From Cloeon dipterum (lineage: Eukaryota > Arthropoda > Insecta > Ephemeroptera > Baetidae): a stretch of DNA of 64,000 nt. How positions within the stretch are numbered: position 1 is the first letter of the stretch; every line of letters begins with the position of its first letter. The notes below the pieces were generated by a model that saw only the letters and a list, made by a program, of their open reading frames with translations, was not told where the DNA came from and did not search any database. Where the stretch lies: positions 7,502,001-7,566,000 of the forward strand of contig NC_088788.1 in NCBI RefSeq assembly GCF_949628265.1, in the 5' to 3' direction. Below, in pieces: positions 42,361 to 64,000 of the stretch. Position numbers and translations under genes: made by a program.

Positions 42361-43290
42361 ATGTCAAGAAGATGGTACGACGGAATTCAGCTGGAAGAGC
42401 TGGACAGAGGCCACAATGACTTCAAATACGTCGAGGGCAAAATGCGGAACAGCATTGGTCACAGCGACGTGACCAGCTACAACTTAAAAAAGGTGAGATT
42501 TGATCAAATCAGAATCAAATTAAGGGAAATTATTTAAATTAAATTAACCACAGGTTTTCCGCATTAACAATAAATACACGTGGCCCCGGTACAAGAAGCG
42601 CCGGGGAAAGATTTATTGGGAAATGGGAAGGCAGCAGTTGGTGGAGGAAAAGAGGCTGTTCCACGGCTCGCCCAAAGCGGACGTAATCGCCAAACAGGGA
42701 TTCGACCGTGGATACGCCAAGCAGTCCGGAATGTTTGGAGCGGGTAATTTTCCGTTCTTATTATTTGAATTAAAAATTATTCAGTTTTAATTTTGAATTT
42801 GAGTATTTTAAAATTGTGTTAACGCTTTTAAATAATTAATTTTACAATTGTACGAATTAATTAATTATTCATCTCATTCGGACTTATTGCTAAATTTTCC
42901 AGGTGTATATTTCGCTGAGCACTCATCCAAGAGCAACAACTACGCGTTTGGCAATCACCAGCCTTGCTCGACGCACAATAATAAAAAGTGCAGCGAATGC
43001 GTCCGCAAGATTCTCATATGTAGGGTAGCCCTGGGCCGCAAGTACGAGACGACCCTGAGAACTGTGTCGTCGCTGCCCCAAGGGTATCACTCGGTCAAGG
43101 CCAACCAAGGGGTGCGCCTCCAATTCCCTGAATACGTCATCTATGACGATGATCAGGTAAATAATAATTTATTTTGAAGGGGTTAAAAATAATTTTTTTT
43201 AATTATCAGGTGTACCCTAGTTACCTGATCGAGTACACGACCAACTACACCACTGCAGCTGCCTCAAGTAACGGGTGCCAAATTATGTGA
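42361..43290 (+). CDS. Tankyrase-like ADP-ribosyltransferase B, CAAX-ended
   Basis: Exons 42361..42492, 42554..42743, 42903..43156 and 43210..43290 give about 218 residues. The N-terminal helix region (WYDGIQLEELDRGHNDFKYV) matches the segment just before the tankyrase catalytic fold. The triad is complete: H81 in LFHGSPKAD, Y121 in SKSNNYAFG, E184 in FPEYVIYDD. Zinc ligands are C-S-T-H-x4-C-x2-C. The last exon, after YLIEYTTNYTT, ends in CQIM, a CAAX box of the type usually farnesylated (C215). There are no ankyrin or SAM domains. A broken PARG-like copy lies 0.9 kb downstream. The closest relative in the window appears to be gene G, which is likewise followed by a PARG-like gene. Confidence 0.87.
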
Positions 43291-44199
43291 TTAAAAAAAT
43301 TAAATAATTGTGATCTTCCGCCGCAAAATTTCTAAGGTTTTGATAACCGTGATGGTTGTATTTAATTAAGGAGAGTTGTGATGAATAAAAACAGATTTTA
43401 ATAAAACTTCCCTAAGAATTTCTATTATTCGACCAGTGCAAAAATATTCAAGTTTATTTTTATGCCTATGCATTTCCAAAATTTTACCTAAAGCTAATTA
43501 AATTAAATTTTTAATTACTCTAGATGCTGGCTAGTTTTATTTTACTGCTTAAACAAAACCATTTTCATAAAGCATAATCAAACTTTAATTGTAATCTATA
43601 ATACAAACTGCTGGAAAGAGATATAAAAGATTACGATTGCTGGTGTAACATCATAAAGAAGAAAAGTGTAATTCTCTGTGTGACAGTAAAAACGGCCTTA
43701 TCGCTCATACCATACATATTACAGTCAACGAGCCTCTTAAAAAGTCTACCTAACTTTTCAGTGTCTATGCTGCATCAAAATTATCTCGTTAATCCCATCG
43801 CATGATACATGAAGTCTCGTCTTTTCGAAAGGACGCTTTTGAATTTCAACTTTAACTTCGTCGTATGGCCATGGCAGCAAGTAACAATGATTCTCATGCC
43901 TCACACACAAAAAGATGAGTTATTTTTACTCAAATTAATGTGCCAAAACGGTTTATTTCCACTACAAAATTAATCATCCTATAAAAGAGCACAATATTTT
44001 GATAAATACGTTTTAAATTGCGCATAAGGGTGAAATAAATAAAATTTAAACATCTTATTTGCATTCATGTACCAGTAAAAATTGTAACGATTCCAGCGAA
44101 AATCTGGGGTTTTCCCTGTCTGCTGCCACCGCTATCAGACAAGTAAATGCATTTGATATAATTTGAGTACGATACTAAAATTGAATAAAATGGAAGGTC
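43291..44199. other. Spacer between ART gene B and the broken PARG copy
   Basis: This is AT-rich DNA without a gene that I can support. It may hold decayed 5' exons of the PARG copy, but none is recognisable. Confidence 0.4.
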
Positions 44200-44641
44200 A
44201 GAAACTCTGGCGACCTGGAAATGTTCATCAGGAGCGAAGGTCGTGTGCCAGCCTGGGACATGGTGGTCATGCACGGAACTTTCCAAGAGGTACAATTTAT
44301 GCCCACCTCTCATCACGCTTCCCAAATAAAATATAACACTGATTTCAAATGCAATTATTCCATCGTTTTTTAGCAAGAGTGGTAAAAAAATCAGAATTTC
44401 ACAAACTTTGTGAGCGGCTTAGTGACCCTGGCGGAGATTCAGGACTATTTGGCCCTGCAGGAGCGCTTCCGCAGGGACATGTGCGTGGAACTGAGCCGGC
44501 ACGAGGTATCGGTGCTGCTGGCCAACGCCTTCCTCTGCCGCCTCAAATACACAGACTACGAGAGCAGCCTCAACTTCAACAGCCTCTGCAGCTCCCGGGG
44601 AGCCAGGGAAATGAAAAATGCTGCTGCATTTCTCGTTTATT
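44200..44641 (+). pseudogene. PARG-like gene copy, broken
   Basis: Two blocks match exons 3 and 4 of the PARG-like gene at 63092. 44200..44289 gives GDLEMFIRSEGRVPAWD, and 44374..44641 gives NFVSGLVTLAEIQDYLALQE, then ELSRHEVSVLLANAFLCRLK and SLNFNSLCSSRGARE. A stop lies in frame at the start of the second block (EW-stop, where the intact gene has DW). The sequence loses homology after RGAREMKN and ends soon after. No counterpart of exons 1, 2 or 5 onward was seen. It cannot make an active glycohydrolase. Nucleotide identity in the second block is high, so the duplication is not old. Confidence 0.8.
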
Positions 44642-45817
44642 AAAAATGATAGAAAAAATATTGAAAAAGGATTAGTGAGAGAAGAAATGGAATTGATAAT
44701 TTTTAATTTAATTATTTTTGAGGGATTATCGTAGAGGTGAAAATTGTGCTGAGAGGAATTTCACCTCTTTTGATGTGATATTGTACAAAAATTAATTAAT
44801 AGATGTTGTAAATCTTAACTTTAATTTAATTCGTTGCAAGACAAAATAAATAATTTAGTATGGTGTTAACGTGTGTCAAATCCATATATTTTATTATTTC
44901 CAACTGCGGCAAACAAACAAATACCATATAGAGATCATGTAATTTAAGAGCTCATAACAAATAAGTTTTTAAATAAAATAATGCTGAGAACAGGCAATTT
45001 TACAGTGAAGTCTCATGAATTATATATCCAAAATTATTACATGTATATAGGTTGGTGAAAACGCTGATGGTGCGCTGATATTGAGGTCCAATATTCGTCA
45101 CTTTGTTTGTTCAATATATGTGTTATTGTTGTTGTTAGTCAAACAATCCCACTGACAACACATTCCCACCAAAGTTGCCTCGATTTGTGGGTTTTGTTAG
45201 ATTGAGGAGATGAATGCTCAGAGTTAGCAATTGGACGTACTTCTCTGCTCCACCAAAATCCGATTGTTTACCATGTTAAGAGGATGTTAGGCTGTCGCGG
45301 CCAACAAGAAGTCCCCGTTGAAGGTCAGCAATGATTGTTTTTTAGGTTTAGTCAAAGCTCAAAAGCTGTTCCGCGGAAAACGCTCGTAAATTTATATTAT
45401 TTGAAGGATGACGACCTGCCGAATAGAAATGTTTGCAACAGGCACAGCTCAGAAATGTGGCACGTTGCATACACTAGGAATTCTTATGTAATAAGGTAGC
45501 TTTGCACAAATATGCTATTTTCTTTTGTGAAGCCATTCATTCAGTATAAGAGGAATTTTTATCATGCATTTGGCGGGGAAGAAGGCAATGTATACATTTT
45601 ATTATTTGTTTAAAAATCTAAATACAAGGCTTGTATAAAAAGATAATATTTGTTTCTGCTTTTGGATTTGATTTTCATACGGAATTGTAGACAGTCATCA
45701 TCTGTAGAGTGTTTAAATGAAAAAACCTTACACAAACTCTGATTTTATTTCCAAATAGCTTGGCTGCATCGGTGGTGTAAAGCACGACCCTTTTGATCGG
45801 TAAATAAAAGTCGGAAT
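44642..45817. other. Gene-free stretch
   Basis: I see no coding pattern in these 1.2 kb. The last 100 bp should contain the promoter of the M13 peptidase gene. Confidence 0.5.
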
Positions 45818-48367
45818 ATGCGGACACGGTAAGTGTAAGCAGGGCAATTCAATTGACAAAAAATTCTACAAAACAATACGGTATTTTATAGAGCAATTCT
45901 CTTGGTTTTTTCGTGTCTTATTCTGGCAGTAAATTTGGAAGGTACGTAAATTTATTTAAATTTTTTAATCAGTACGTGTTTTGTAATAATTTCTCTTCAC
46001 CAGAGACACCACTCAGCCCAAGGATTGATTGGTACAGGTGGCTGATAGAAAGAAATGAAACAAACAGAGCATTAAATGGTGAAATTAATTGAGCTTTCCA
46101 AACTATCGTGATTTAGAAACATTATGTGTTTGTAGAAAGCTCACTGCCACAGCTTCATAATTTTGGAATCAAAGTGCGATTTCATAAAATCGGGAGTCCA
46201 CATGCACGTATTGAGGCCGAAACTAAGGATGTCTGTTATTCAGAGGAATGCATGGAGTCTGGTCAGCTCAACGACTTTTATTCAATTTCAGCCCGGTCAA
46301 CTGCCACTTTATTCAAATTTCAGCAAACCGTATTTTGGCTTCAATGGATTTGAGTGTCGATCCGTGCAGCGATTTCTTCCAATTCGCGTGCGGAGGCTAC
46401 ATGAAAAACAACCCGGTCACAAGCAAATTCCCCGAACACCAGAAATTCCAAATGCACTCTACCTTGGACAATGTTTACAAAAAGTTGCATGGTAAGAAAG
46501 AGTTAAAAATCTCAAAATAAGTAAAAATTGTGCAGTGATTCTCGAGGATGATAGTGATAGCAAGCACCCGTTTCTGCAGAGAGCGAGAAGAAATTACGCA
46601 ACATGCGTTCAGAAAGGTTTTTAGGTTTCATTATTGCCAGTAATAAATCTAGTTCATTTTTTTTTAGCTGAGCCAAGGAAATGCTTGCGTAGCGTGCTTG
46701 CAAATAAACGTTTTGAATGGTTTCTTGGAGTGGCGTACGCCAGGGACTACCCTCAGACGGATAAAATTAATAAAGTAAGTTTTTGATGCTTTGGACTTGA
46801 GAATTTTATACGTATTTCAAATTTATTAGTAATTATGTGGACAAAACTCTGCAATTTTTTTCTTTCAAAATTGGCAGTAGTGTTCACTTTTTTGGTTTTT
46901 AAAAAATTAAGAGAGTACATATGGAAATAAAATTTTTCTTAGTCTCTTCATTCAGTCCCTAAAATTTTTTTTACTTTAAATGGGGTTCAAGAATCTCGGG
47001 AAATAAGTTTATATTATTTATCTGGAGTCACCAAATTATCCAAAGCCCAAATTTTCGTTCCAAAAAAATACTTGCAATCCCAAAAATTATTTCATATCTG
47101 AGTTAAAGTCTTGAAAAGCCAGTAAAGCTAACAAATAATTTTTAATGCTAAAAATTTGGCATTAAATTTCCTTAGAATCATCTTTCTATTGAAAAATTCT
47201 AGTTTCGCTTTTTAATTTTTTTTATTCTCATGCAAGCTGTGTTCTTTTTTTCAGACTAAAATCATGTTTGAAGCAGTCAAGACGGAGGTCAAGACTCTCG
47301 TGGCGAACAGCATGTGGATGGACTGGGATAGTATAGAAAATTCGGTGGAGAAAGTGGATGACGTGATAGCTGTAATTGGTTACGATCCTGTAGTTTTAAC
47401 TGACCATAAAAAACCTAGGGTGAACGGATTAAAAGCATTCATGAAACCACTGAGGAATAATCCGTTCTACGTGTCCCACTATAATGCAATTTGTAATTTG
47501 TTTTTATTCTTGATGTTCTTACAAACTGATACAAAAACTTCCTTCAGGTTTACCCGTGGCTTCATTGAATCCTCCATTACTCAACCTGGGTCTCGAGTGA
47601 GTACCAACTAACAAATATTCTCTCTTTTAGATGGAATAAAGATATTTTTTCAGTGCTTTGGAATATGGCGCGATCGGAACTATAATTGGCCACGAGTTTG
47701 CACATTGCATCCATTACTACGGTTCGTCAATCCAGAAATATCTGCATTTTTTAATCTAAAACGATTTTTATTAGAGCTTGGCAGGAGAGGCTTGTGGAAC
47801 ACTATTTGGTCTGACGGAACAATCGCGAATTATGACTCGATAAAGGATTGCTTCGTAAGGCAGTACACCGAGGAATTACGAAAATTTATCACTCTTAGAA
47901 GGGATGAAGTTGGAAAAGTAATTCATAAAATCCTCCTATGTATTATTTATTTAGTAACAATTATTCAGGTTGATGGAAGGAAAACCGTGGCCGAGAACAT
48001 AGCGGACCTTGTTGGATTGCAAGCCGCCTACCGCGCCTTCAAGCGACTCAACGTCACAAATCGCATACTCATGGGCCTCATCACGGACTACTGCCCAGAG
48101 CAGCTTTTCTTCCTGGGGATGGCAATTGTAATTTTATATTTAAAACTTTTATAAATTAATTCGACGAAATTAATTCTTCAGGCGCGGTGCACGAGCGAAT
48201 CGGTCCAATTCACGGAAGATTTCATTTTGGACAGGTCTCAAGTGCACAGTCCCTGGAAATTCAGGGTCAATGTGTCGCTGAAAAATTTCAAAGCGTTTGC
48301 CAAGGCTTGGAACTGTCCCTCAGGATCAGAGATGAACCCTATTAGGAATAGGTGCACCATCTATTAG
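45818..48367 (+). CDS. Short M13 (neprilysin-like) zinc metallopeptidase
   Basis: Thirteen exons, 45818..45828, 45892..45941, 46004..46078, 46136..46261, 46324..46491, 46536..46616, 46668..46774, 47255..47492, 47548..47596, 47654..47721, 47775..47917, 47969..48127 and 48182..48367, give about 486 residues, against 700-770 usual for M13. A signal peptide ([15 protein letters not shown]) is followed by the M13 start [15 protein letters not shown]. Zinc ligands lie in GHEFAH (H315, H319) and ENIAD (E381), and the transition-state histidine in QVHSPWKFR (H447). The end is WNCPSG...NRCTIY. About 250 residues of the usual middle are missing between YATCVQK and the next block, while every junction keeps frame. 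It should be a secreted or membrane-tethered peptidase for short peptides. Whether it still folds is uncertain. Confidence 0.78.
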
Positions 48368-48434
48368 ACCTTGTTTGATTAATTTTATTTGTTCACAATA
48401 ACTCTTGTTTGCCTTCAAAATATTTGTTTTTAGA

Positions 48435-48657
48435 GCTTTTAAACAAATTTTGTAGAACATTGTTGTATATCAATTATGAAAAAGTCCCTACGTGATAAAA
48501 GGAAAGCAAACAATGATCTGTTTGTTATTTATTCACACCACTTCGTTTATCAGCGCGGTGGCACGCGACCATATAATAGTCGTGATATCGTAATTGAATG
48601 AAGGGCCGCCGCCACGCCAAGTGATAACACGTTTACCGCGCACAAACATTTAAAAAA
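48435..48657. repeat. Duplicated segment (3' flank of the M13 gene), copy 1
   Basis: From GAGCTTTTAAACAAATTTTG through TTATCAGCGCGGTGGCACGC to TTTACCGCGCACAAACATTT this block is closely matched at 55340-55570. It marks one edge of the segmental duplication that also copied ART genes C and D to E and F. Confidence 0.75.
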
Positions 48658-48854
48658 ATGTAAATATGTATAAGAATACGGTTTTTCGACAACTAGCACT
48701 TATCCCTTCTGAACAGAAAATTCCTGGAATTTTTTCGTTTTGTATATTGAGCAAAAATCCTTCACATTGGAGAGATTGATCCTCTCTTGTATTAATTAGG
48801 TCACGTATTTTTCTTTAAATTCCGTGTTATAACTCATGCAATGATTTATACTAT

Positions 48855-49046
48855 TTGAGAAATTGCCACGCGTTTTTGTCCAATGCAAGCTGCCGGCTTA
48901 AAAACCTGGTTGAGTTAGTCTTGGAGATTGACGCGACAGAGATGTTCCCTCTCCGTGAGGTGAGGGACTCGCTGCACCAAAGGCTAGCTGACGAGGGTTT
49001 AATACCCGAAACGGCTGTCCTAGTCACGGGTGTTTGGCAACAATGA
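48855..49046 (+). other. Coding-like orphan fragment
   Basis: A GC-richer open stretch reads LVELVLEIDATEMFPLREVR, then DSLHQRLADEGLIPETAVL, ending VWQQ and a stop. Composition and lack of stops suggest a real exon or the remnant of one, but I recognise no family. No partner exon was found on either side. It could be a fragment of a captured gene. Confidence 0.3.
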
Positions 49047-49525
49047 ATGTTTTGTGTTTTTTTCTTGGACATTTTGGCACTTGCTTAAAATGTTTTCGAA
49101 AAATTCGCTTAACACTTGTTTTTGATGATTTCTCAAATGGTCTGCGTTGCATTGAGTATAGAGTAGCATCCCTTAGTATAGTACGAGTATCTTTTTTTTA
49201 ATTGAGATGTATAAAAATATTAAATAAACCAATTATAATGTGAGTAAAGTATAATCATACAGCGAGGCGTGAACATTTTATTTTGCATGAAAATCGGCGC
49301 TTTTCGAAACTCTTTTAGATAATTGTGTTTTTGAGTAGTACTAGAAACGGGTCTTAAAATATGTTTTTATGAAATATCAATTAAAAGACGCTCACGAAGC
49401 CATGATCATTAGCATTATTTTTGGTCAGTTGCCAGCAGTACACGGATTAACACGGAAAGGTACGTTCTCTTTACTCTAAATTATATCTTTTGGCTAATTT
49501 TCGGATATTTTTTTTGTCTCAAGGC

Positions 49526-51398
49526 ATGATGAATGACGAATCATTTCTGCTTTTGACAAAAAGAAGACTGTATCACATTAAAAACCAAAGCTTGGAACAT
49601 CAGGCCATTCGAGTAATTTTGCACAATGCTCACTTTTATTTAAAATCATTCGAACAGAAGCTAAAAATGCAAAATTTGCGTGAGTTTCAATTTATTAAAA
49701 AGTTTAAATGTTCCAAGTATTTCCAAATAGCCAGAGTGTTGCGGGAAAAACTGTTGCAAGAGATGCTGCGATGGAGATGCCGGAGAGAAAAAGGTGACAG
49801 TAAAAAATTTGATGATCTAATGGAAGTGTTCCGGATTTTACTCAGTACCAGAACGCGTCGCGTTGAACTGAACGGGATTTTGTCCTTTTGTCCTGATCGA
49901 TACGCAAACAAGTCATTTAAAATGGTACGTAAATATTTTCTACCTTCCGACAAAAATCTAGTTTTCAATATAGACTCGCATTTACTGCGAGAAGCTGCTG
50001 TGCTGGGCTGCAAACCTGGCTCCAAACATCGAGGAGGTGACGATCAAAAGAAACCACGCTTTCAAGATGAAAATCACTCCAGAGCGAGGCACAGCGAAAA
50101 TGTTGCAATATTTTAGCAGAATGCAAAATTTAAATCGACTCTTCGTCGAAATCTACTCATTCAAGGTCTCGCAAATTTTGAATCTGTGCAAAAACCTTCC
50201 GAGTCTGCAATTCCTCAATGTCAGATTCGAAAATTCAAAATGTTTTCGTCCTTCTGCGGAGGAGATCAAAAGCAGTTTGTCCAACGTGAAGGAGTTTATT
50301 TTTGCATCAAAAGGCTTAGCAGACACGCACTTTTGGCTAAAGATTTTGTGCATCGAGAATTTGCCGAATATAGAAGTGGTGCAGTTTTACTGCAATGATA
50401 GTTCCACGAAGCAGAGGCGGGAATTTTTCTTCCTGAAAAATTTCAGCGAGACTTCAAACCTGCGACACGCAAACGTGGAATTCAACACGCACGCTGATGT
50501 CCATACAATGTTTCCCAACATTACTGATTTAATGGTGACTCTTCTTATTTATCCAAATAAATCATTTTTTGTTAATCTTGATTTTCCAAAGGTTGATTTG
50601 GAGTTTTACTCTGAAAGGGTTAATGAAGCGAGTGATTCTTTGTTCAAGTTCACTAAAATCAAAAGCCTCAACCTCCAAATTTTAGAAGCATGTCCGTTTC
50701 CCATCCGGGATAGATTTTGGGAAACATACGGCAAAAACCTACACACGCTCGTGTTATTCAGTCTATACGAAAAGAACTTTATTGATTTGAATTCCGTTTT
50801 TAAACATTGCCCGAAACTGGAGAAACTTTCCCTCATTCACGCGAATATCATGATGTCACAGCCAACGGATTTCTTTGCAGAGCTGAAAGAGTTTGAGTGG
50901 CGACAATTTCCCGCGTAAGTATGATTTATTTTTTAGTTTGAACATATTTAAAAATAACTTGATTATAGTATTAACGGATGCATAGATATTTCCAACATCG
51001 TTTTGGCCCCAAAGCTGGAAAAAATAGAGATATACAGCAATAAATTCAACCAAGAGGGTTTGAGGAAGGCCACTTTCCTTATTCAAGAGAAAAAAATTCT
51101 GAAGCAGTTGCACACTTTTCACATGCACACCTATCGCATAGTGGACGAAATACTGAGCGATTTGCTGCATGAGCTTGTCAAGAGTGCCTGTGCCTTTCTC
51201 CCAAAGTTAACAAAAGTCAATTTCAGTGCATCGAATAACGCAGCGAGCGAAGAGAATTACATTCTAGATCGTTATTGTCATGTTTTTGAGAGAGAAGAGG
51301 ATTATCCGTCTACAGATCCTTTTATGGTTTATGACCGAGCAGACGTCCATAGTGATCAATGCATTTTGCAGCTTCTTGACCTTTTTGAGTCATACTAA
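49526..51398 (+). CDS. LRR / F-box-like protein, copy 2
   Basis: Five exons, 49526..49679, 49731..49924, 49974..50534, 50592..50914 and 50969..51398, give about 553 residues. It starts MMNDESFLLLTKRRLYHIK. After an F-box-like LPRVLREKLLQEM it has leucine-rich repeats (LCKNLPSLQFLNVRFENSK, CPKLEKLSLIHANI, LAPKLEKIEIYS). It is a paralogue of 9579-11458, with shared phases and the same 194-bp exon 2, and it carries one additional intron (50915-50968). The role is probably as adaptor for ubiquitin ligases, by family analogy only. It sits directly between the M13 peptidase and ART gene C, and it is missing from the corresponding place in the duplicated segment at 55.3-56.3 kb. Confidence 0.75.
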
Positions 51399-51745
51399 AA
51401 ATTCACTGGGCTATAAGTTCTTTCTGTTTGCAAAATTGTGAGTAGTAAATTTTTAGAAACATGTGTATAGTAATTAATACTTGTAATATGGTGCAATGTG
51501 ACTTTTTCCTGAAGATAAGATTACAGTGGTATGATTCCTAATAAAACACTTATTTTTTACTATCCATCACCATTTCTATTTTTAAAATTTAAACTGGAAA
51601 TTAGAAAAGCTCCAAACTTTTGATACAAATCAGATATTAACTTTGTTTTTGTTGATAACAATATAAAAACTGGACACCATGAGAACCCAATCAACTATTT
51701 TTCCTTCTCGTATCCGTGGTATAAAGCAAACGCAAATTCTGCAAC

Positions 51746-51755
51746 TTAGACTTTC
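51746..51755. promoter_or_regulatory. TTAGACTTTC motif before ART gene C
   Basis: The decamer TTAGACTTTC lies about 90 bp before the start codon, within a 140-bp block (CGCAAATTCTGCAACTTAGA, ATATAAACGTCG) shared with 56205-56345 upstream of gene E. See the same motif at 56253, 56357, 60602 and, inverted, at 42289, 60563 and 62170. Confidence 0.4.
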
Positions 51756-51842
51756 TTAATAAGTCCAATCAGGCTTCTGAAGATAAGGAAGGATAAGCAA
51801 TATAAACGTCGTACCAGGATCCTTCAACTAACACCTCGCAAA

Positions 51843-52733
51843 ATGACGTCTTCAAGAAAGACATGGTACGACGGAATTCTTCTGGAGGAGCTAGACGGAC
51901 GTGACAAAGATTTCAAATACGCCAGTGACAAAATGAGTAAAACAATAGGCCACGACGATGTGACCAGCTACAACATTTTGAAGGTTCTATTATTTGAAAT
52001 TGTATTTTTAATTAAATTAAATTTTTTTAAAAATGTCTGCCAGGTGATCCGCATCAGTAACAATGACACGTGGCCGGCATATGAGCAACGCCGGAAAGAG
52101 ATTTACAACGACCTTGGCAAGCAGGTGGAGGAAAAAAGACTTTTCCACGGCTCCCCCAATGCTGATATCATCGCCAGGGAGGGATTCGACCGCGGATTTG
52201 CTAGACAGTCGGGAATGTTTGGAAATGGTGAGTTTATATTCATTCATTTTCACGAGAATTAAAGGAAACAAAAGATAAACAAAATTTATTTCTCTGTAAG
52301 TTTAAAGCGCTTACAATAGTTGATTTTATAATTTTACTTGTAATTCATCCAGGAGTATATTTTGCGGAGCACTCCTCAAAGAGCAACAACTGCGCGTTCG
52401 GCAACCACCAGCCCTGCCCGACACACAGAAACAAAAAGTGCAGCGTGTGCGTCCGCAAAATTCTCATCTGCAAGGTTGCCCTGGGCCGAATTTATGAGAC
52501 GAACCAGTCAACCGTATCGGCGCTGCCCGCAGGTTACCACTCGGTCAAGGCCAATTCTGGACCACTTCTCCTGTTCCCTGAGTACGTCATTTACGACGAT
52601 AAACAGGTTTATTGAAATTTAACCTACACATATAGGGTTAAAGATTTAAATTTAATTTATTTAGGTCTACCCTAGATACCTGATCGAGTATACAACTAAC
52701 TATGCTCCTGAATCTTGGTGCACTATTGTTTGA
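51843..52733 (+). CDS. Tankyrase-like ART C, CAAX-ended, catalytic Tyr replaced
   Basis: Exons 51843..51983, 52044..52227, 52353..52606 and 52665..52733 give about 215 residues. It has the same plan as gene B: TWYDGILLEELDGRDKDFKY, LFHGSPNADII (H82), GVYFAEHSSKSNN, zinc site C-P-T-H-x4-C-x2-C, FPEYVIYDD (E185). The triad tyrosine is replaced by cysteine (SKSNNCAFG, position 122). That should weaken NAD binding and may leave a pseudoenzyme, or change it to another activity. The C-terminus YAPESWCTIV ends in a CAAX box. All splice sites and the frame are sound, so selection on a non-catalytic role is possible. Gene E is its duplicate and also lacks the tyrosine. Confidence 0.85.
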
Positions 52734-53805
52734 TTTGTTATTTTTTTATATATATGTGTATTAAAAAATCTAAAAGTCTACTTGCAATTAGATAGCTTTT
52801 AATATTATATTTTCTGCAGTATAATAATTATACCTTTTATTGTACAAAAATTATATCCTAGTAAAAAATTGCCTCTGATTTTCCTAATTGCTTTTTTCTA
52901 AGAAGCTCAAGCTTTTTTTCTATCAAAACCAGAGAGGTTTTTATTTATACGAGTCATTCCAATCGAGAATAAAAAAATTTAATTCATCCAGAAACATTAA
53001 AATTTTGTTTCAATTCTTAAAAAGTGCCATGGTATACGGGGATAAAAATATTTCATTAACTGGTGACACCAGGAAAAGGTCTTAATCTGTGATTATATCA
53101 TTCAATAAAAACGGTATGACGCAATTGGAGCATTGAAGGCCCACAATTGCAACTAAAAAAGTCTAAGGCATTTATTTCATATTTACATCAGTCGACATGA
53201 GCCTGATAAAAAAACTTCCCTCGATAAATAGAGACAAACATTGTGGTTTTAAACATTGCTTTTCATCTTTAATCGCAAATTACAGGAAATCCATCTTGCC
53301 ATTAAGGGAAACAGGTTTCAAGATGCAAAAGTTTGTTAATATATTATAGCGAGCAGAATAAAAATTACTTGTCTTTTAATCCAAGTTATGCAAATAAATT
53401 TTATTGAATTTCAGATGTCCTAAACATACTAATATTTCATTTGAAGATATTATTGATCGTTTTTTGAACAGCACATAAAAGCCAACAGTATGGTATGAGG
53501 CGATTAACATATTTTCCTCTGTTCTATAGCTATAGCACGAAATAGGCTCTACACAACCAAAATATCTATATCATATCCGCACCATGGAAATGAACATAAT
53601 TGATTAAAAACCATGTACTACAAAAGGATCGATAGGAATATTAGTTATTGGCACGTCATCTTAATTACACTGGTGTGTGATAAAATATGACTTTCTTTTA
53701 CAGATTAGCTTTATTTCTCATAATCCTGTCAGACGATCGTACGTAGATAAAAATCCGACATAAAAAGCAGGCCCGATTTGCGCTTCAACTCAATACCGCT
53801 TAAAT
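52734..53805. repeat. Intergenic duplicate of the E-F spacer
   Basis: The block 53110-53384 (AACGGTATGACGCAATTGG ... GAGCAGAATAAAAATTACTT) matches 57640-57922 between genes E and F. It also contains AAAAGTCTAAGGC at 53157. No gene was seen. The DNA just before 53806 (CCTGTCAGACG) matches that just before gene F (59147). Confidence 0.65.
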
Positions 53806-54730
53806 ATGGCATCATCGAGCAGGACATGGATCGACGGGATTTCGTTGGAGGACCTTCCCAGGGGAAACGATGATTTCAAATACGTCGAGCACAAAATGCG
53901 GTCCACAATTGCACACGCTGAAGTAACCGGCTACAATATTCGCAAGGTAAAAAGGAACTAACTAATAAGTGGAAATATATTATTTAAATTTTAAAAGGTG
54001 TATCGAATCAACAACAAATACACACGTGGCCGCAGTACGTGAGGCGCCGGCAAGAGATTTCCCGACAGTTGGGCGGGCAGAAAGTCGAGGAGAAGCATCT
54101 CTTCCACGGCTCACCTAAGGCTGATGTCATTGCCACGGAGGGTTTCGACACCGGATTCGCCAAGGCTTCAGGCATGTTTGGAAGTGGTGAGTTATTTTTA
54201 TATGAAGGAGATGAAAAAATCCGCAGAACGCCGATCCTGATGTTAATAACTTTTATTTTTAATTATGCACAGCATTTCTTAGTGACTGCTTTTAGCGAAA
54301 TTATTAAAAACAAGTTTAATCCTAAATTTCCAGGCGTGTATTTCGCTGAGAACTCTTCCAAGAGCAACAACTACGCGTTCGGCGACCACCAGGCATGTTC
54401 GCCGCACCGCAACGTAAACTGCAGCGTGTGCGTGCGCAAGATGCTCATCTGCACGGTTGCTCTGGGCCGCAAATTCGAGACTTCCGAGGCGACCGGGTCC
54501 AGACTGCCTTCAGAATACCACTCGGTCAAGGCCAATGCGGGATCCGCCCTTCTGTACCCTGAGTACGTCATTTACAACGACGATCAGGTATTTATAAAAT
54601 ATTTCATACAAATAATGGATTAAAATTTAATTTTTTTCAGGTGTACCCCAGCTACCTGATTGAGTACACGACTAATTACGCGCGTGGAAATGAAATGCGC
54701 GTGCCAGCGGGGGCAGCGGGCTATTATTAA
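53806..54730 (+). pseudogene. Tankyrase-like ART D, frameshifted in exon 2
   Basis: Exons 53806..53946, 53998..54186, 54334..54587 and 54641..54730 correspond one to one with gene F. In exon 2 the stretch AACAACAAATACACACGTGG has two extra bases (AC) compared with AAATACACGTGG in gene F, so translation from the first exon soon stops. Everything downstream remains open: LFHGSPKADVIA, SKSNNYAFGDHQ, zinc site C-S-P-H-x4-C-x2-C, YPEYVIYND. The triad residues are all present. This could be a very young pseudogene, a segregating allele, or an assembly error. The end is YARGNEMRVPAGAAGYY, with no CAAX box. Confidence 0.75.
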
Positions 54731-55339
54731 GCACGATGTCAGGGATGAAAAGTGCACAATGTTGAGATGAATTCTTATTTATGGTTCAATCTTTGTGTAC
54801 GTTTTTTCACTTAATTGGGAAGTGTTTTAATTATTGCTGTTATATGCTTTGCAAAATAAAGTCCTAAGGAAAATTGAGAAAAAATAGTCTTTTAAAACAA
54901 TTTTTAATTAATTTTCATTTTATGATCACCCCAATGAGATTAGAAAAGGGGAAGAACCAATATTTACGATGATAAAATTTGATAATTTTTCACGGCATTA
55001 GCACTATCATTACAACAAATTTAACCCTTGTGCTTTTGATAAGATTACAACAATTTGGGGTCTTGGCTATAGTCAGCTGCCGTGCTGTAATTTTGGGTCA
55101 TGTGGACAGGCAAAGGCCGTCAATTTTGCCAAGCTATCGCCAGCCGTCGTCTGTCAAGTCAAGAAGCCAAAAAAACGGTGGAGAATAAAATTAATGAAAT
55201 AACTATCAAACCTCTATTATTTTGAATACACCAGCCGCTGTCAGTCCAAATACATCTCACAATCAGTTGCTGCCAATTTTGCTTGAGAACATTTGAATTT
55301 TTAAAAAGTCTTCACAATATTTGTTTTATTTGCATTCAT
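54731..55339. other. Spacer after ART gene D
   Basis: This is the 3' flank of gene D, with similarity to the flank of gene F (both contain AGATTAGA-AAGGGGAAGAA). The stretch 54754-54775 still carries AAGTGCACAATG just after the stop codon. I see no gene. Confidence 0.4.
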
Positions 55340-56345
55340 TTAGAGCTTTTAAATAAATTGTGTAAATCATTTGTTGTATTTCAATTATGAAAAGTCCCTA
55401 CGTGATAAAGGGAAAAAGAGGGAAAGCAAACATATTAACTGTATTATCTGTTTGTTATTTATTCATACCACTTCGTTTATCAGCGCGGTGGCACGCGACC
55501 ATTGTCGTGATATCGTTAATTGAATGAAGGGCCAAAAGTGATAACGTTTACCGCTCACAAACATTTAAAAAAGAAAACAAATAATGTAAATATATGAATA
55601 GGAAATTAACCAATTATAATGAAAATATTGTACATTCATAATAAATTCAGAAATTATATTTTATTGCAGATCAGCAGGGCAACTGTGCCCCATACATCCC
55701 CATCCAGAACACAAAAAATATAGGTGTTAAAATTTTATTTTGCATGGGAATCTGCGCTCTTTGAGACTCTATCTTTTAGATAAAAAAAACACTCAATACT
55801 TATTTTTTGCTATATCAATTAACCATAATGTTTTTAAAATTTAAACTGGATTAAAAAAAACTCAAAACTTTCAATATACAAATAAGAGATTACACATGTT
55901 TTGTTGTAAAAAAATGAACAACCTGTGTCGTGCTTGAACTGCCCCAACACGAGCCTGCAGGCCCGGCCGCTACCCAAGAACCTGCCCTCGGCCCAGGTTG
56001 AGTATGGCGTCTGGCAGCATCTGTGCTCCTTGGACTGCACGGATAGTTTTACTGAGAAAGTGGTCAAACTTGCTGAACTGGTGGGCATGTGAAAATGTGA
56101 AGCGTTTAGGCACAATACGCTTTCCTTTCCCTGTCTGCATAGGCGCCCGTTGGAGCAGTTCAGAGGCCGAGTCATGTAACGACACCATGAAAGCCAGATC
56201 CGCAATTTTTCCATCTTGTATCCGTGGTTTAAATCAAACGCAAATTCTGCAGTTAGACTTTCTAAGAGTCCATAATCAGGGTCCTCAAGATAAGAGAAAT
56301 TGCAATATAAACGTCGCACCAGGACATCTCGCGAAAGATGAGGAT
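55340..56345. repeat. Duplicated segment, copy 2, with the LRR gene missing
   Basis: In order, this region matches 48435-48657 (M13 3' flank, at 55340-55570), about 49270-49330 (TTTTATTTTGCATG..., at 55730-55800), about 51545-51655 (3' flank of LRR copy 2, at 55790-55910) and 51700-51840 (upstream of gene C, at 56205-56345). The LRR gene itself is absent. A coding-like fragment occupies 55935-56092. This shows a duplication followed by an internal deletion or replacement. Confidence 0.65.
55935..56092 (+). other. Coding-like fragment with a Cys-pair (MYM-type?) pattern
   Basis: This GC-rich island reads VSCLNCPNTSLQARPLPKN, LPSAQVEYGVWQHLCSLDC and TDSFTEKVVKLAELVGM, then a stop. The spacing C-x2-C ... 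L-C-S-x2-C-x3-F resembles MYM/TRASH zinc fingers, but one short fragment is thin evidence. It stands out sharply from the AT-rich surroundings and could be an exon of an unrecognised gene or a captured gene fragment. Confidence 0.3.
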
Positions 56346-56366
56346 ATATATACTACTTAGACTTTT
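56253..56366. promoter_or_regulatory. Two TTAGACTTT motifs before ART gene E
   Basis: TTAGACTTTC lies at 56253-56262 and TTAGACTTTT at 56357-56366. The second is about 95 bp before the start codon, the same distance as in gene C. Confidence 0.4.
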
Positions 56367-56460
56367 TAAACAGTCCAATATTTGTCTTATCGCACACCTA
56401 CTCTAAAATAAAGTCATAGTAACGAAAGCTATTCAATTTGAATTCGCGGCTGAGGAAAAA

Positions 56461-57352
56461 ATGAGCAGAAGGTGGTACGACGGAATCCAATTGGAGGAGC
56501 TTAAGAGGGACCAACCTGCTTTCAAATACGTGGAAGACAAAATGAAAAACACCATCGTGCACAAAGAAGTGACAGGTTACCAAATTCAAAAAGTGAGTAG
56601 GGCTATTTCAATTTGTTCAATTATTTCTTATTTTGTTTGAAAATTTAAAAGATTTACCGCCTCAACAACAAATACACATGGTCGCATTACAAGAATCGAA
56701 GAGCGGCAATTTCCGAAGAAATGGGAGGACGTCACGTGGAGGAAAAGAGGCTTTTCCACGGCTCACCAAAGGCCGACACCATTGCTAAAGAAGGATTTGA
56801 CCGCGGATTTGCCAAGGATTCGTGCATGTTTGGGAGCGGTAATACAACTAAAATTTAATTTCTAAACAATCACGGTTGATTATCTGTTATATCCTTTAAA
56901 ATTTATTTAAATTTTTTTATTGAAAATCAATTTGCATTATTCTTCCCCTAATATAATAAAATCAAATCAGGGGTGTACTTCGCGGAGCACTCCTCAAAAA
57001 GCAACAACTTCGCGTTCGGCAACCACCAGCCTTGCCCGACGCACAACAACAAAAAGTGTAGCATTTGCGTGCGCAGCGTCCTCCTCTGCAAGGTTGCCCT
57101 GGGCCGGATTTATGAGACGACCCTGTCAACCGTATCGGCGCTGCCTGCAGGTTACCACTCGGTCAAAGCCAATCCTGGACTTCTTCTCCTGTTCCCTGAG
57201 TACATCATTTACGATGATAAACAGGTATATAATTAAAATTAAACCTACACATATAGGGTTAAAGAGTTAGATTTATTTAGGTTTACCCTAGATTCTTGAT
57301 CGAGTATACAACTGACTACGCTTCTGACGGACCTTCGTGCACTATTGTTTGA
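56461..57352 (+). CDS. Tankyrase-like ART E, CAAX-ended, catalytic Tyr to Phe
   Basis: Exons 56461..56592, 56652..56838, 56971..57224 and 57281..57352 give about 214 residues. Landmarks are RWYDGIQLEELKRDQPAF, LFHGSPKADTI (H80), VYFAEHSSKSNNFAFG (F120 in place of the triad tyrosine), zinc site C-P-T-H-x4-C-x2-C, FPEYIIYDD (E183) and the CAAX end SCTIV (C211). Phe keeps ring stacking against nicotinamide but lacks the hydroxyl, so activity is uncertain. It is the duplicate of gene C, with which it shares exon 3 (RIYET...STVSALPAGYHSVKAN) and the end. Gene C has Cys at the same site, so the tyrosine was lost in two different ways or in two steps. Confidence 0.85.
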
Positions 57353-59188
57353 TTTTTTATATGATAAATCAAATCCGAAAATATTATTTGATCTGCCGTA
57401 ATAACTTTACTGTACAAAAATTATATTCTAATAAAAAACAAATTCTTGTTTTTTTTTTAAATCAGAAGCCTGAATAAAAAATGTTTTTATTTATAGGTTA
57501 TATATATGATAAATTGATAAAATCCAGAAACATTAAATTTTTTTCATTTCTAAAATCGCTGCAATGGTATGGTGATAAAAAAGTTTCATTAACTGGCGAC
57601 ATGAGGAAAAAGTCTTTATCTGCGAATAATTAAAAAAAAAACGGTATGACACAATTGGGTAATTTAACAATAAGGCACCAGCCAAAATGTCTAAGACATG
57701 ATATTTCATTTTTACATCAGCCGATAAGAGCCTGATAAAGACTTTCCTCGATAAATAGATACAAATGTTGTGGTTACAACATTGCTTTTCATTATTAATC
57801 GCAAACTACAGGGGATGATCCATCTTGACATTAAGGGAAGCAAGTTTCAAAGATGCAAAAGTGTGTTAATATAGCGAATTAGCGATCCGAGCAGAATAAA
57901 AACAACTTGCCTTTTAATCCAATAATTAGGAAAGCAACTCAATTCTTAAAATTTTTAAATATCATGTAACGAACAAAAATTATTTCAACTGTTCCGTTTC
58001 TTTACACAGATAATAAAATAACTTCATTATTTAATGCTGTAGATGTCAAAGGGTTATACGTGTGAGACAAATTGCAAATTTACATCTGAGAGACGCCAAC
58101 GAACACACGGGCAGTAATTGCACTAATTGCAAAATAGCTTATGTGTAGCGAAGAAGTAAATTAATGCGAAGAAGCTGCTGTGCACGGAAATAAAGCAGAC
58201 CTACAAGAGAAATTGAAAGAGTGACACGTCCGCACCACCGACCACCCTATCTTTTCGCCCCTAAGTTGCATTGTATACGCAAAAAACATTTTTTGTAGTA
58301 TCCTTATCCTTGCGTCCACGTCTTGCAATTTTAATTTTTCAGTTTAAATAGAATTTAAGAATTTCCAAGGTGAATCAGACCTCTATTACTTTGCTTCCAT
58401 TCACATTCGTGATATAATTTATCTCGCTTTCAGCGTTTTATTCATGTTACACGACAAGGAAACGCCACGCTTGCGGTCACCGACACATCAATTCAGTTTT
58501 TCAGTGCAAAGCATTATTTTACGATCAGAGATATTTTATCCCACCCACTAGTTTTTCATCGTGGACAAATTAGCGATCTTGTGTTGCGCAAAAATTTACT
58601 TCATTCTTGTACCAAAACAATTTAGACAACAACTGTATTGGATTTTTTTTATAAATTACATTATTTAAGGCGCGGCCGCTATTATCTAGGCATGAGGCCA
58701 AACAATTTTTTAAGCACACCACTGAAAAACTCATTTGTTTTGCAAGAAATGCATAACATGTTGGGTTACAGATCAAATTCCGCTGTATGGCATGTTAATG
58801 TTACATAAAACATGAAAATAAAAAAAAAGCGCGCAAGACATTGTTGTTTTTCTTTTTGTGCGCGGCTCCCACAACGAAAACGCTTAGAACGGAATGTCGG
58901 GAATATCATACAGTTTTCATTTACGTTTCATTTGGTCGAGGAATAGTGTGGCTTTTGATGCTGCCAGATTCATGCAAGTTGCAACACCCAGCCGACCAAT
59001 AACAATGCATTTAACAGTTTTGGCTCATTGGCCGAGACTGCCGAGAGTCTCCATTGGTGACGTCACAGGCTGCACGCGCGTGGAAGGGAGACACTGCGTC
59101 CTGCGGCTCACCGTAATTTCTCAATATCTCTTAATCCTGAAAACCTGTCAGACGTTCATCCAATTGCCCTTCATTTCAACACTTGAAA
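57353..59188. other. Long spacer between ART genes E and F
   Basis: 57640-57922 duplicates 53110-53384. The remaining 1.2 kb (57923-59140) has no counterpart between C and D, so it was inserted in one lineage or lost from the other. A GC-richer part at 58840-59160 is probably the promoter of gene F. No gene was seen. Confidence 0.45.
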
Positions 59189-60134
59189 ATGGCATCGTCG
59201 AGCAGGACATGGGTCAACGGGATTTGCCTGGAAGAACTTCCCAAGGGACACGATGATTTCAAATACGTCGAGGACAAAATGCATTCCACAATTGGACACT
59301 CTGAAGTAACTGGCTACAACATTCTGAAGGTAAAAGGAACTCGATTGTTCTAATTAGTGGAAACGTAACATTTAAAATTTAAAAGGTGTATCGAATCAAC
59401 AACAAATACACGTGGCCGCAGTACGTGAGGCGCAGGCAAGAGATTTCCCAACAGTTGGGCGGGCAGGAAGTCGAGGAACAGCATCTCTTCCACGGCTCAC
59501 CAAATGCACATGTCATTGCCGCGGAGGGCTTCGACACCGGATTCGCCAAGACCTCAGGCATGTTTGGAAAAGGTGCGTTATTTTTTTATGAAAAGGAGAT
59601 ATAAAAAATCATTTGCGCAGAGCGCTCCATCCTGATTAATTTCTATTTTTAGTTACACACAGAAAATCGAATCTCTTTTCTGACTACTTTAAGCTGAATT
59701 ATTAAAAACTAGTTAAATCCTCAATTTCCAGGCGTGTATTTCGCTGAGCATTCTTCCAAGAGCAACAACTACGCGTTTGGCGACCACCAGGCATGTTCGC
59801 CGCACTGCAACGTAAACTGCAGCGTGTGCGTGCGCAAGATGCTCATCTGCACGGTTGCCCTGGGCCGCAAATTCGAGACTTCCGAGGCGACCGTGTCCGG
59901 ACTGCCTTCAGGATACCACTCGGTGAAAGCCAATGCGGGATCCGCCCTTCTGTACCCTGAGTACGTCATTTACAACGACGATCAGGTATTTATAAAATAT
60001 TTCATACAAATAATGGATTATAATTTAATTTTTTTCAGGTGTACCCCAGCTACCTGATTGAGTACACGACTAATTACGTGCGTGGATATGAAATGCGCGC
60101 ACCAGAGGGGGCAGCTGGCGACTATAAAGCATGA
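59189..60134 (+). CDS. Tankyrase-like ART F, intact triad, no CAAX
   Basis: Exons 59189..59329, 59386..59572, 59732..59985 and 60039..60134 give about 225 residues. Landmarks are MASSSRTWVNGICLEELPKG, LFHGSPNAHVIA (H83), EHSSKSNNYAFG (Y123), zinc site C-S-P-H-x4-C-x2-C, YPEYVIYND (E186). The C-terminus is extended, YVRGYEMRAPEGAAGDYKA, and lacks the CAAX box of genes B, C, E and G. AAGTGCACAATT, the codons for a CTI-type box, survives about 20 bp past the stop, in another frame. It is the sound sister of frameshifted gene D. It should be a soluble mono- or poly-ADP-ribosyltransferase. Confidence 0.86.
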
Positions 60135-60562
60135 TGTATGTCAGGATTGAAAAGTGCACAATTAAATGTCGAGATAACGCCTTATTCTTTATGGTTTAAT
60201 CTTTGTGCACGTTTTTTCACTTGATTGCTTAGCAAAATAAAATCTAAACGGCAAATTGAGACAAATTTGTGTTTTTAAAAAAGCCAAACATAACTTTTCA
60301 AGCAGAAGGAATTTTATAATCATTCCAATGAGATTAGACAAGGGGAAGAAGGGAAGAACCAACATTTATGATGATAATTGTTCACGGAATTTTAGCACTA
60401 TCATTACAACAAGCTAAACCCTTGAGCTTTTGATGAGATTACAACAATTTAGGGGGTCTTGACTATTTAATCAGCGGCTGTACTGTAATTTAGGGTCACG
60501 TGGACTGCCGCCGTAAATTTAGCGATGAAAATAATAAACTGCAATTGATAATAAACGAACCG

Positions 60563-60611
60563 CGAAAGTCTAAAGGAGCGGGAGTAGACTAAAACAGCAA
60601 GTTAGACTTTC
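60563..60611. promoter_or_regulatory. Paired AAAGTCTAA / TTAGACTTTC motifs before ART gene G
   Basis: GAAAGTCTAA at 60563-60572 and TTAGACTTTC at 60602-60611 form an inverted pair 29 bp apart, ending about 60 bp before the start codon. They are the clearest instance of this motif in the window. Confidence 0.45.
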
Positions 60612-60673
60612 CAAGCAGATAAGTTGGCTGTACCACTTATAGAACGGCGCTGTTAATACCGTCTCTCGCAATC

Positions 60674-61499
60674 ATGACGAGCGATAGTAGACATTGGTAC
60701 AACGGAATTCAACTGGAGGAGCTGCGCAGGGGCCACAATGACTTCAATTATGTCGAGGACAAAATGCACAAAACCATCGGACACAGCGACGTCACCGGCT
60801 ATAACATTAAGAAGGTGCTTTTTATAGGATTGGGTATAAAAATCCATAATTTATAATTTTCTAACATTAATTTTTGACAGGTGTACCGAATCAACAATAA
60901 ATACACGTGGCCCCGGTACGTGAAGCGCAGGGAGGAAATTTTCAAGGACCTCGGCAGGCAGCGCGTGGAGGAGCGAAGACTTTTCCACGGCTCGCCCAAG
61001 GCCGACGTCATCGCCAAACAGGGATTCGACCGGGGATACGCCCAACAGTCCGGAATGTTTGGAAATGGTAATTTTTTTGTGAATTAGACTATTTCAAATT
61101 AAATAAAAAAATTTCAGGTGTGTATTTCGCGGAGCACTCGTCAAAAAGCAACAACTACTCGTTCGGTTGTGGACAGCCGTGTCCGACGCACAGCAGAAGC
61201 AAGTGCAGCGAGTGCGTCCGCATGATTCTCATCTGCAAAGTGGCCCTGGGGAAGAAATACGAAACTTCCTTGACGACCGTGAACTCGCTCCCCAGAGGAT
61301 ACCACTCGGTTAAGGCCAATGCGGGAATACGCCTCCAATTCCCCGAGTACGTTATCTACAATGATGACCAGGTAATTTTTTTTCTTTTAATAAAATGGTT
61401 GAGAAATTTGAATCATTTTTTTAAAAATTATTTCAGGTGTACCCCAGCTACCTGATCGAGTACACGACCAACTACTCCGACTCGTGCACAATTTCATAA
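60674..61499 (+). CDS. Tankyrase-like ADP-ribosyltransferase G, CAAX-ended
   Basis: Exons 60674..60814, 60881..61067, 61118..61371 and 61437..61499 give about 214 residues. Landmarks are HWYNGIQLEELRRGHNDF, LFHGSPKADVIA (H83), EHSSKSNNYSFG (Y123), zinc site C-P-T-H-x4-C-x2-C, FPEYVIYND (E186). It ends YSDSCTIS, a CAAX box with serine in last position, normally a farnesyltransferase substrate (C211). The triad and frame are complete. It lies 1.6 kb upstream of the PARG-like gene on the same strand, so it is a natural candidate for co-regulation with the eraser. The closest relative is gene B (shared RINNKYTWPRY, SECVR, LQFPEYVIY). Confidence 0.88.
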
Positions 61500-63091: not shown

Positions 63092-64000
63092 ATGCTGAAC
63101 TACAATAACAAGCAGCCCTTCCAGTTTCGAGGCAATGGCGGAGGCGGAAATCAAAGACATCCAGGATCAGGGTAGGCTTTATTCTAGTATATTTTAAGAA
63201 AATTGATTTACAAATTTATGTAAATTTAGAAATAATGGAAGAGGATGGGGCACGGGCCAAAATACGTTTGGCAACGCTCAACGCTCTTTCCAGATCAACG
63301 TGAGTGTTTCTAGAAATAAATAAATGATAAATATTAAATTAATTTCTGATCCTGAATTAGGTCGGCTCAATCAGGAGCACTGGTGACCTGGAAACGTTCA
63401 TCAGGAGCGAGGGCCGAGTGCCGAGCTGGGACTTTGCAGTCTTGCATGACACTTTCCGCGAGGTACAGTCCCTTTGTCCCTTCTCTCTCTCCATTGTCCT
63501 CTAATGTAATTCAACCATTTCTAGCTCGATTGGCTCAAACACCAGCAGTTCACTGACTTTGTGAGCGGCGTGGTGACCCTGGCGGAGAGTCAGGACCACT
63601 TGGTCCTGCAGGAGCGCTTCCGCAGGGACAGGTGCGTGGAACTGAGCCGGCACGAGGTGTCAGTGCTGCTGGCCAACGCCTTCCTCTGCCGCCTCAAATA
63701 CACGGATCACAAGAGCAGCCTCAACTTCAACAGCCTCTACAGCTCCCGGGGCGCCAGGGAAGTGAAAAAGGAGAAGCTCAAGTGCCTCGTTTTGTATCTG
63801 TACTTTGTCCTGACCAATTCACATTATGGTAAATTTGTTTAATTTTATTAGACTTTTTATTGAATTTATTTTCCGGCAGCTCGCGAGACAGTGACATACA
63901 GAAAAGTGAAGATGCACGCGCAGGATGAGAACTCATTCAGGCAATTAAATTTTGCAGACAGCCAGAGTGTGCTCAGTGAAGTGGATATTATTCCTAACCA
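63092..64000 (+). CDS. Parg: PARG-like poly(ADP-ribose) glycohydrolase, partial (window edge)
   Basis: Exons 63092..63171, 63230..63299, 63361..63462, 63525..63828 and 63880..64000 (continuing past the edge) give about 225 resid. so far. A Gly/Asn-rich head (QFRGNGGGGNQRHPGS) is followed by the helical PARG region: LETFIRSEGRVPSWDF, LDWLKHQQFTDFVSGVV, then the family hallmark LSRHEVSVLLANAFLCRL, SLNFNSLYSS and KKEKLKCLVLYLYFVL. PARG removes poly(ADP-ribose) chains down to the last unit. The catalytic GGG-x(6-8)-QEE loop lies beyond the window, so activity is not proven. The head has no obvious nuclear signal and is much shorter than in vertebrate PARG. A broken copy is at 44200-44641, next to ART gene B. 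Confidence 0.78.

Follow-up and report, generated by a model that had tools for sequence, protein, structure and literature searches.

Tankyrase-like genes with terminal CAAX boxes in the mayfly Cloeon dipterum probably encode prenyl-anchored, catalytic-only ADP-ribosyltransferases

The genome of the mayfly Cloeon dipterum contains a tandem array of short tankyrase-like genes, here designated B to G, in a 64,000-nucleotide stretch of contig NC_088788.1 (the window; C3:7502001-7566000), with a seventh such gene, A, upstream. Four of the encoded proteins, B, C, E, and G, are probably working ADP-ribosyltransferases of the tankyrase class that consist of the catalytic part only and are prenylated on the cysteine of a terminal CAAX box, so that they would be held on the cytoplasmic face of a membrane. 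We infer the prenylation of the CAAX-ended proteins from their sequences. The proposal as a whole builds on the gene structure, the tankyrase-class fold, the retained H-Y-E triad and zinc ligands, purifying selection, the flexible tail of B, the occurrence of CAAX ends in two genera and three lineages, and the presence of prenyltransferase-family genes. The entire genome (190 Mb, 10 contigs) was searched; coordinates without a contig refer to the window.

An earlier note, made from the DNA letters, described A to G as seven compact genes encoding nothing but the catalytic part of tankyrase. Exon models, matches to the Pfam PARP family, and the lack of ankyrin and SAM matches in the scanned proteins bear this out. 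All seven genes share a four-exon plan with GT-AG introns in phases 0/1/0. The array extends from the ATG of B to the stop codon of G (Table 1). Five genes (B, C, E, F, and G) are intact and encode 214-225 residues. For all of these but C, the model is identical, letter by letter, to a protein predicted by NCBI and named 'tankyrase-like' or 'tankyrase-2-like' (Cloeon dipterum). The counterpart of C in a second assembly of the species, P0005, is identical in 204 of 215 residues and also ends in CTIV. The count of seven holds for the gene plan, but D is frameshifted in this assembly, where its exon 2 has two bases more than that of F and the frame is destroyed. An intact protein resembling D is encoded in the second assembly (P0006; likeness judged by eye), so that the frameshift reflects either a broken allele or a mistake in the assembly.

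The Pfam PARP model matches B with 80.9 bits (E 1.2e-22) and F with 89.5 bits, the curated cut-off being 26.7, and the relatives P0213, P0215, P0017, P0010, P0020, and P0008 with 58-87 bits. The best matches in PDB are tankyrase-2 and tankyrase-1. The triad H81, Y110, and E184 is shared without variation by all five intact proteins of the array and aligns with that of tankyrase-2, and the zinc ligands C129, H132, C137, and C140 of the CxxH...CxxC site are retained in the same five proteins. The catalytic domain is thus assigned to the tankyrase class (clade 4), being closest to tankyrase and keeping its zinc site, and by the H-Y-E criterion the five proteins are predicted to be active as poly-acting PARPs. 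Synonymous divergence among the genes is 0.82-1.76, and they are under purifying selection.

Tankyrases are defined by 15-18 ankyrin repeats followed by a SAM domain and the PARP domain (PMC2964712). Eight intact proteins of the mayfly family (175-297 residues) were scanned, and neither an ankyrin or SAM match nor a zinc-finger RNA-binding domain of the ZAP/PARP13 kind was found in them. In contrast, the canonical tankyrase gene (PARP5a/5b) at C1:22.94M, the one locus where the upstream DNA was scanned for further domains, has both ankyrin and SAM matches upstream. It is found at a single locus and ends in DVDLR with no box, while the mayfly family occupies at least 29 loci and some of its members end in CAAX.

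The ends of B, C, E, and G are CQIM, CTIV, CTIV, and CTIS, placed directly before the stop codon exactly as the earlier note had read them, with cysteine at -4, an aliphatic residue at -2, a permissive last residue, and nothing beyond. The last exons themselves are not different, as had been thought. Those of B to G are homologous and share V-Y-P-[SR]-[YF]-L-I-E-Y-T-T-[ND]-Y, and variation is confined to the tail beyond. Between B, C, E, and G the linker differs in length and letters, yet the cysteine at -4 and the isoleucine at -2 are retained. When the strict motif C-x-[ILVM]-[AMSQCLFV] was counted along 35 mayfly homologues, whose members are not independent (some genes are related, and one species is represented by two assemblies), it formed the very end in 13, whereas the positions at offsets 1-59 had it 0.20 times on average. 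At offsets 1-32 from the end it did not occur at all in these proteins. The bearers comprise four of eight proteins from this assembly, three of nine from the second C. dipterum assembly, six of 16 from Neocloeon, and none of two from Ephemera. Because of this exact placement a chance origin of the terminal boxes is unlikely, in agreement with the earlier note. Outside the mayflies, one of the 181 proteins among the matches listed (one list holding the best 120 of 213) bears the motif, the metagenome piece P0079 (CPVS); many of these proteins look truncated, which makes them a weak control when taken alone.

A cysteine within the final strand of the PARP core, compare YLITYQI of tankyrase, would be buried. 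This was considered for the CAAX cysteine and rejected: in the structural model of B, the sole protein modelled, the last strand reaches to residue 205, 13 residues follow it, and the last nine (210-218) are disordered, with confidence scores (pLDDT) below 50. With such a tail, CQIM should be reachable by a prenyltransferase. Genes of the prenyltransferase family are found at three loci in the genome (subunits not told apart). As to D and F, an ancestral box lost from both was hinted at by GTGCACAAT, found 3' of their stop codons and matching the CTI codons of G. The hint is weak and is not relied on; the window has four copies of the 8-base core TGCACAAT on its plus strand and one on its minus strand, and the alignment leaves the string unplaced.

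The tankyrase-like set extends well beyond the array. At least 29 loci were found genome-wide, including the seven of the window and not counting the canonical tankyrase; this is a lower bound, with last exons read by homology and splice pattern and with other PARP families (e.g., C1:0.93M and C2:35.5M) left out. Six of the 29 have a CAAX end, namely B, C, E, G, C3:20.99M (KDICTIS), and C1:24.79M (KCSIM), the last tail agreeing with the NCBI model P0213. The earlier note had proposed to tabulate the ends of relatives, and the outcome is divided: boxes recur in a second genus in spite of linker variation, but many relatives are boxless. Neocloeon triangulifer has CSLM (P0008), CVVM (P0010), CVIA (P0013 and P0014), CTIC (P0017), and CIIL (P0020), and the second C. 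dipterum assembly has CTIV (P0005), CSIM (P0214), and CTIA (P0215). At C4:28742000-28769500 (L054, L055) there are three near-identical tankyrase-like genes whose PARP domain is encoded in one unbroken frame, in contrast to the four exons of the array genes, possibly as a result of intron loss or retrocopying.

A tree was calculated from 51 rows, with D of the window represented by P0006 and with P0214-P0216 left out. Tails were trimmed at the last strand in 26 rows, the other 25 not fitting the trimming pattern, and columns less than half filled were dropped, leaving 203 of 516. A single clade (44 rows, support 100/99) unites all rows of Cloeon and Neocloeon, the canonical tankyrase excepted; it is adjoined by two Ephemera danica proteins and then by insect tankyrases. 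CAAX ends appear in three places, in nine of the 15 rows of the array clade, in both members of the pair C3:20.99M and P0017 (100/98), and in one of the ten rows of the clade of C1:24.79M. Gain and loss of the box take six changes, at least five of which are forced by well-supported branches; the shuffled mean is 11, so that the label is clustered, with near-copies contributing. One ancestral gain with several losses would be as possible as three gains.

The strongest hint that these enzymes may work at membranes is the presence of two membrane signals in one protein. Three proteins, P0213 (the NCBI model for C1:24.79M; L039, C1:24783600-24789600), P0214 (its counterpart), and P0215 (a paralogue), have a hydrophobic N-terminal segment, with 17-residue averages of 2.39, 2.22, and 1.59, and end in KCSIM, KCSIM, and SCTIA, respectively. 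In the same scan a core segment of P0004, P0006, and P0102 scores 1.57-1.59, so that P0215 is weak alone while P0213 and P0214 stand out. In the latter two, basic residues follow the hydrophobic segment, and by the positive-inside rule both the enzyme and the box would be on the cytoplasmic side.

Genes for PARG, the putative eraser, lie next to the tankyrase-like genes. A PARG fragment follows B, and a PARG gene that continues past the window follows G (Table 1). The latter carries a GGG...QEE stretch, which we take to be the PARG signature. At a second locus a PARG gene (C5:5912125-5913223) is found less than 1 kb after the tankyrase-like gene at C5:5.911M, and at both loci PARG is on the same strand as the tankyrase-like genes and shortly downstream of them. 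PARG has been multiplied to about a dozen loci in the genome. Two of 12 PARG loci, in an approximate list without the fragment and weaker matches, are within 10 kb of a tankyrase-like locus, and random placement on C1-C5 gave two or more in nine of 20,000 trials. A single duplication of a PARP-PARG unit could have given rise to both pairings; in a tree of ten PARG loci the support is too low to show whether the two tankyrase-adjoining genes are sisters.

The following mechanism is proposed. The protein would be translated in the cytosol and fold as a free tankyrase catalytic domain. The choice between farnesyl and geranylgeranyl depends on the CAAX letters, and farnesyltransferase would attach farnesyl to the tail cysteine, while geranylgeranyltransferase I would be expected to attach geranylgeranyl to CIIL of Neocloeon. 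The last three residues would then be trimmed off, and the membrane-seated enzyme would ADP-ribosylate whatever neighbours its membrane. The membrane address would thereby do the choice of targets in place of the ankyrin repeats and the SAM domain, which these proteins lack. With less confidence, the neighbouring PARG genes might supply the eraser, and the family might serve a role with fast turnover, for instance in immunity or stress. The copy number, the frame-broken member, and the uneven occurrence of the box fit such a role no better than moderately.

PARP catalytic domains held at membranes are known. PARP16, which is of another PARP clade than tankyrase, is a short one that is tail-anchored in the endoplasmic reticulum. 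The C1:24.79M lineage with its hydrophobic N-terminus is similar in plan, but PARP16 carries its transmembrane segment at the C-terminal end and is not known to have a CAAX. ZAP-L, the long isoform of mammalian ZC3HAV1 (PARP13), does not belong to the tankyrase clade. According to PMC8568172 it is located at membranes, ends in a farnesylated CaaX box, CVIS, and combines an RNA-binding domain with a catalytically inactive PARP domain. The mayfly proteins resemble it in having a PARP domain that ends in CaaX, with the lipid predicted, and differ in that they keep the triad and no other domain was seen. The open part of PubMed Central, mostly judged by title, gave no report of a tankyrase that bears a CAAX or is catalytic-only; the accessible text of one paper on tankyrase and CaaX employs CAAX as a tag, the accessible text of a paper on tankyrase evolution (PMC9688111) does not mention mayflies, Ephemeroptera, or Cloeon, and a Neocloeon thermal study includes PARG in its quantitative PCR set, as far as its accessible text goes. 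Thus a farnesylated CaaX on a PARP domain is already known and the kind is not wholly new; what is new is the tankyrase origin, the retained active-site residues, the absence of other domains, and the proximity of PARG at two loci.

The earlier note knew of no prenylated, membrane-tethered tankyrase-like enzymes from the literature, and the ZAP-L precedent weakens its reading. Several observations weigh against prenyl-anchored enzymes as the explanation. Three of the seven window genes (A, D, and F), 23 of the 29 loci (among them C4:12.1M, whose last exon was not delimited), and ten of the 16 Neocloeon proteins show no box, so that it is dispensable for much of the family. Orthologues that keep the rest and lose the CAAX, named beforehand as counter-evidence, are seen in part. 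P0007, the counterpart of E in the second assembly (174 of 205 residues identical), is annotated without a box. CTIV is not a textbook farnesylation sequence. Ras proteins use a basic stretch or a second cysteine as a second membrane signal; the four array boxes have neither nearby, and the membrane residence of their proteins may therefore be weak. Finally, genes that arose by duplication do not count as independent cases.

The tails might also be prenylated on enzymes that are weak or mono-ADP-ribosylating and act mainly as membrane scaffolds, a role that ZAP-L, its PARP domain being dead, may likewise have. That precedent, and the lack of a SAM domain, through which tankyrase assembles, speak for such a role, which nevertheless seems rather unlikely given that neither the triad nor any of the four zinc ligands has been lost from the five intact array proteins, that selection is purifying, and that PARG genes are near at two loci. 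It is improbable that the ends are accidental, one chance tail without a lipid having been copied by tandem duplication. The four boxed genes do share their ancestry and a homologous last exon, and D (frameshifted) and F are boxless; yet -4 and -2 have been kept across the synonymous divergence and the differing linkers, boxes are also found in another genus and two further lineages, and the positional control points the same way. That another system, such as a PDZ domain, a C-degron, or palmitoylation of the cysteine, reads the conserved end is very improbable, for although T-I-V is class I-like and CTIV and CSLM end in the [S/T]-x-hydrophobic pattern of PDZ ligands, CQIM, CTIS, CVVM, CVIA, CTIC, and CIIL are unfit as class I ligands and what all share is the prenylation pattern, Cys at -4 and an aliphatic residue at -2.

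The window contains other features as well. An Argonaute/Piwi-like gene, marked by a Piwi-domain exon (PF02171, E 8.4e-18) at 30295-30693 on the minus strand, lies between A and the array, and exons of a neprilysin-like Peptidase M13 gene (46236-48151, plus strand) lie inside the array between B and C. Two related open stretches on the plus strand, 10050-11455 and 49974-51398, the second also inside the array, have a weak match, below the curated cut-off, to the leucine-rich repeats of F-box proteins. The last intron of A contains an inverted repeat (17429-17712) with arms of 141 nt that are 91% complementary and 2 nt apart, perhaps a foldback mobile element.

Table 1. Tankyrase-like genes, CAAX codons, and PARG sequences in the window (all on the plus strand).
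Feature	Position	Exons	Residues	End	Remarks
Gene A	16400..18245	16400-16522, 16689-16884, 16935-17191, 18204-18245	205	ITYNIKP	no CAAX; clade other than that of the array (tree)
Gene B	42361..43290	42361-42492, 42554-42743, 42903-43156, 43210-43290	218	GCQIM	tankyrase-class PARP domain; = P0001
CAAX codons of B	43276..43287			CQIM	abutting the stop codon
PARG fragment	44386..44643				helical domain in open frame, ~1.1 kb after B; PF20811 E 2.2e-6 and own-genome match
Gene C	51843..52733	51843-51983, 52044-52227, 52353-52606, 52665-52733	215	WCTIV	
CAAX codons of C	52719..52730			CTIV	
Gene D	53806..54730			GAAGYY	frame lost in exon 2; no CAAX; exon plan as other array genes
Gene E	56461..57352	56461-56592, 56652-56838, 56971-57224, 57281-57352	214	SCTIV	= P0003
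CAAX codons of E	57338..57349			CTIV	
Gene F	59189..60134	59189-59329, 59386-59572, 59732-59985, 60039-60134	225	GDYKA	no CAAX; = P0004
Gene G	60674..61499	60674-60814, 60881-61067, 61118-61371, 61437-61499	214	SCTIS	= P0002
CAAX codons of G	61485..61496			CTIS	
PARG exon	63525..63842				first recognised exon, in open frame, ~2 kb after G; PF20811 E 6.3e-13; gene continues to ~C3:7567472

Tankyrase is usually viewed as a large scaffold that finds its targets through the ankyrin repeats and assembles through the SAM domain. In the mayfly lineage a bare catalytic domain of this type has been multiplied to about 29 loci, several of them with the signal for a lipid anchor; if these proteins are prenyl-anchored enzymes, they would show that an address can replace recognition for enzymes of the tankyrase class. 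A wider picture, in which baetid mayflies evolved fast-turnover, constitutively active single-domain tankyrases that are prenyl-anchored, paired with PARG at two loci, and ADP-ribosylate proteins at membrane surfaces, possibly as innate-immune or stress effectors and as a convergent, active counterpart of farnesylated ZAP-L, is speculative and on the unlikely side. The family would also offer minimal tankyrases that occur in nature both anchored and unanchored and can be compared directly, and through them one could ask whether membrane-anchored PARPs evolved convergently with ZAP-L.

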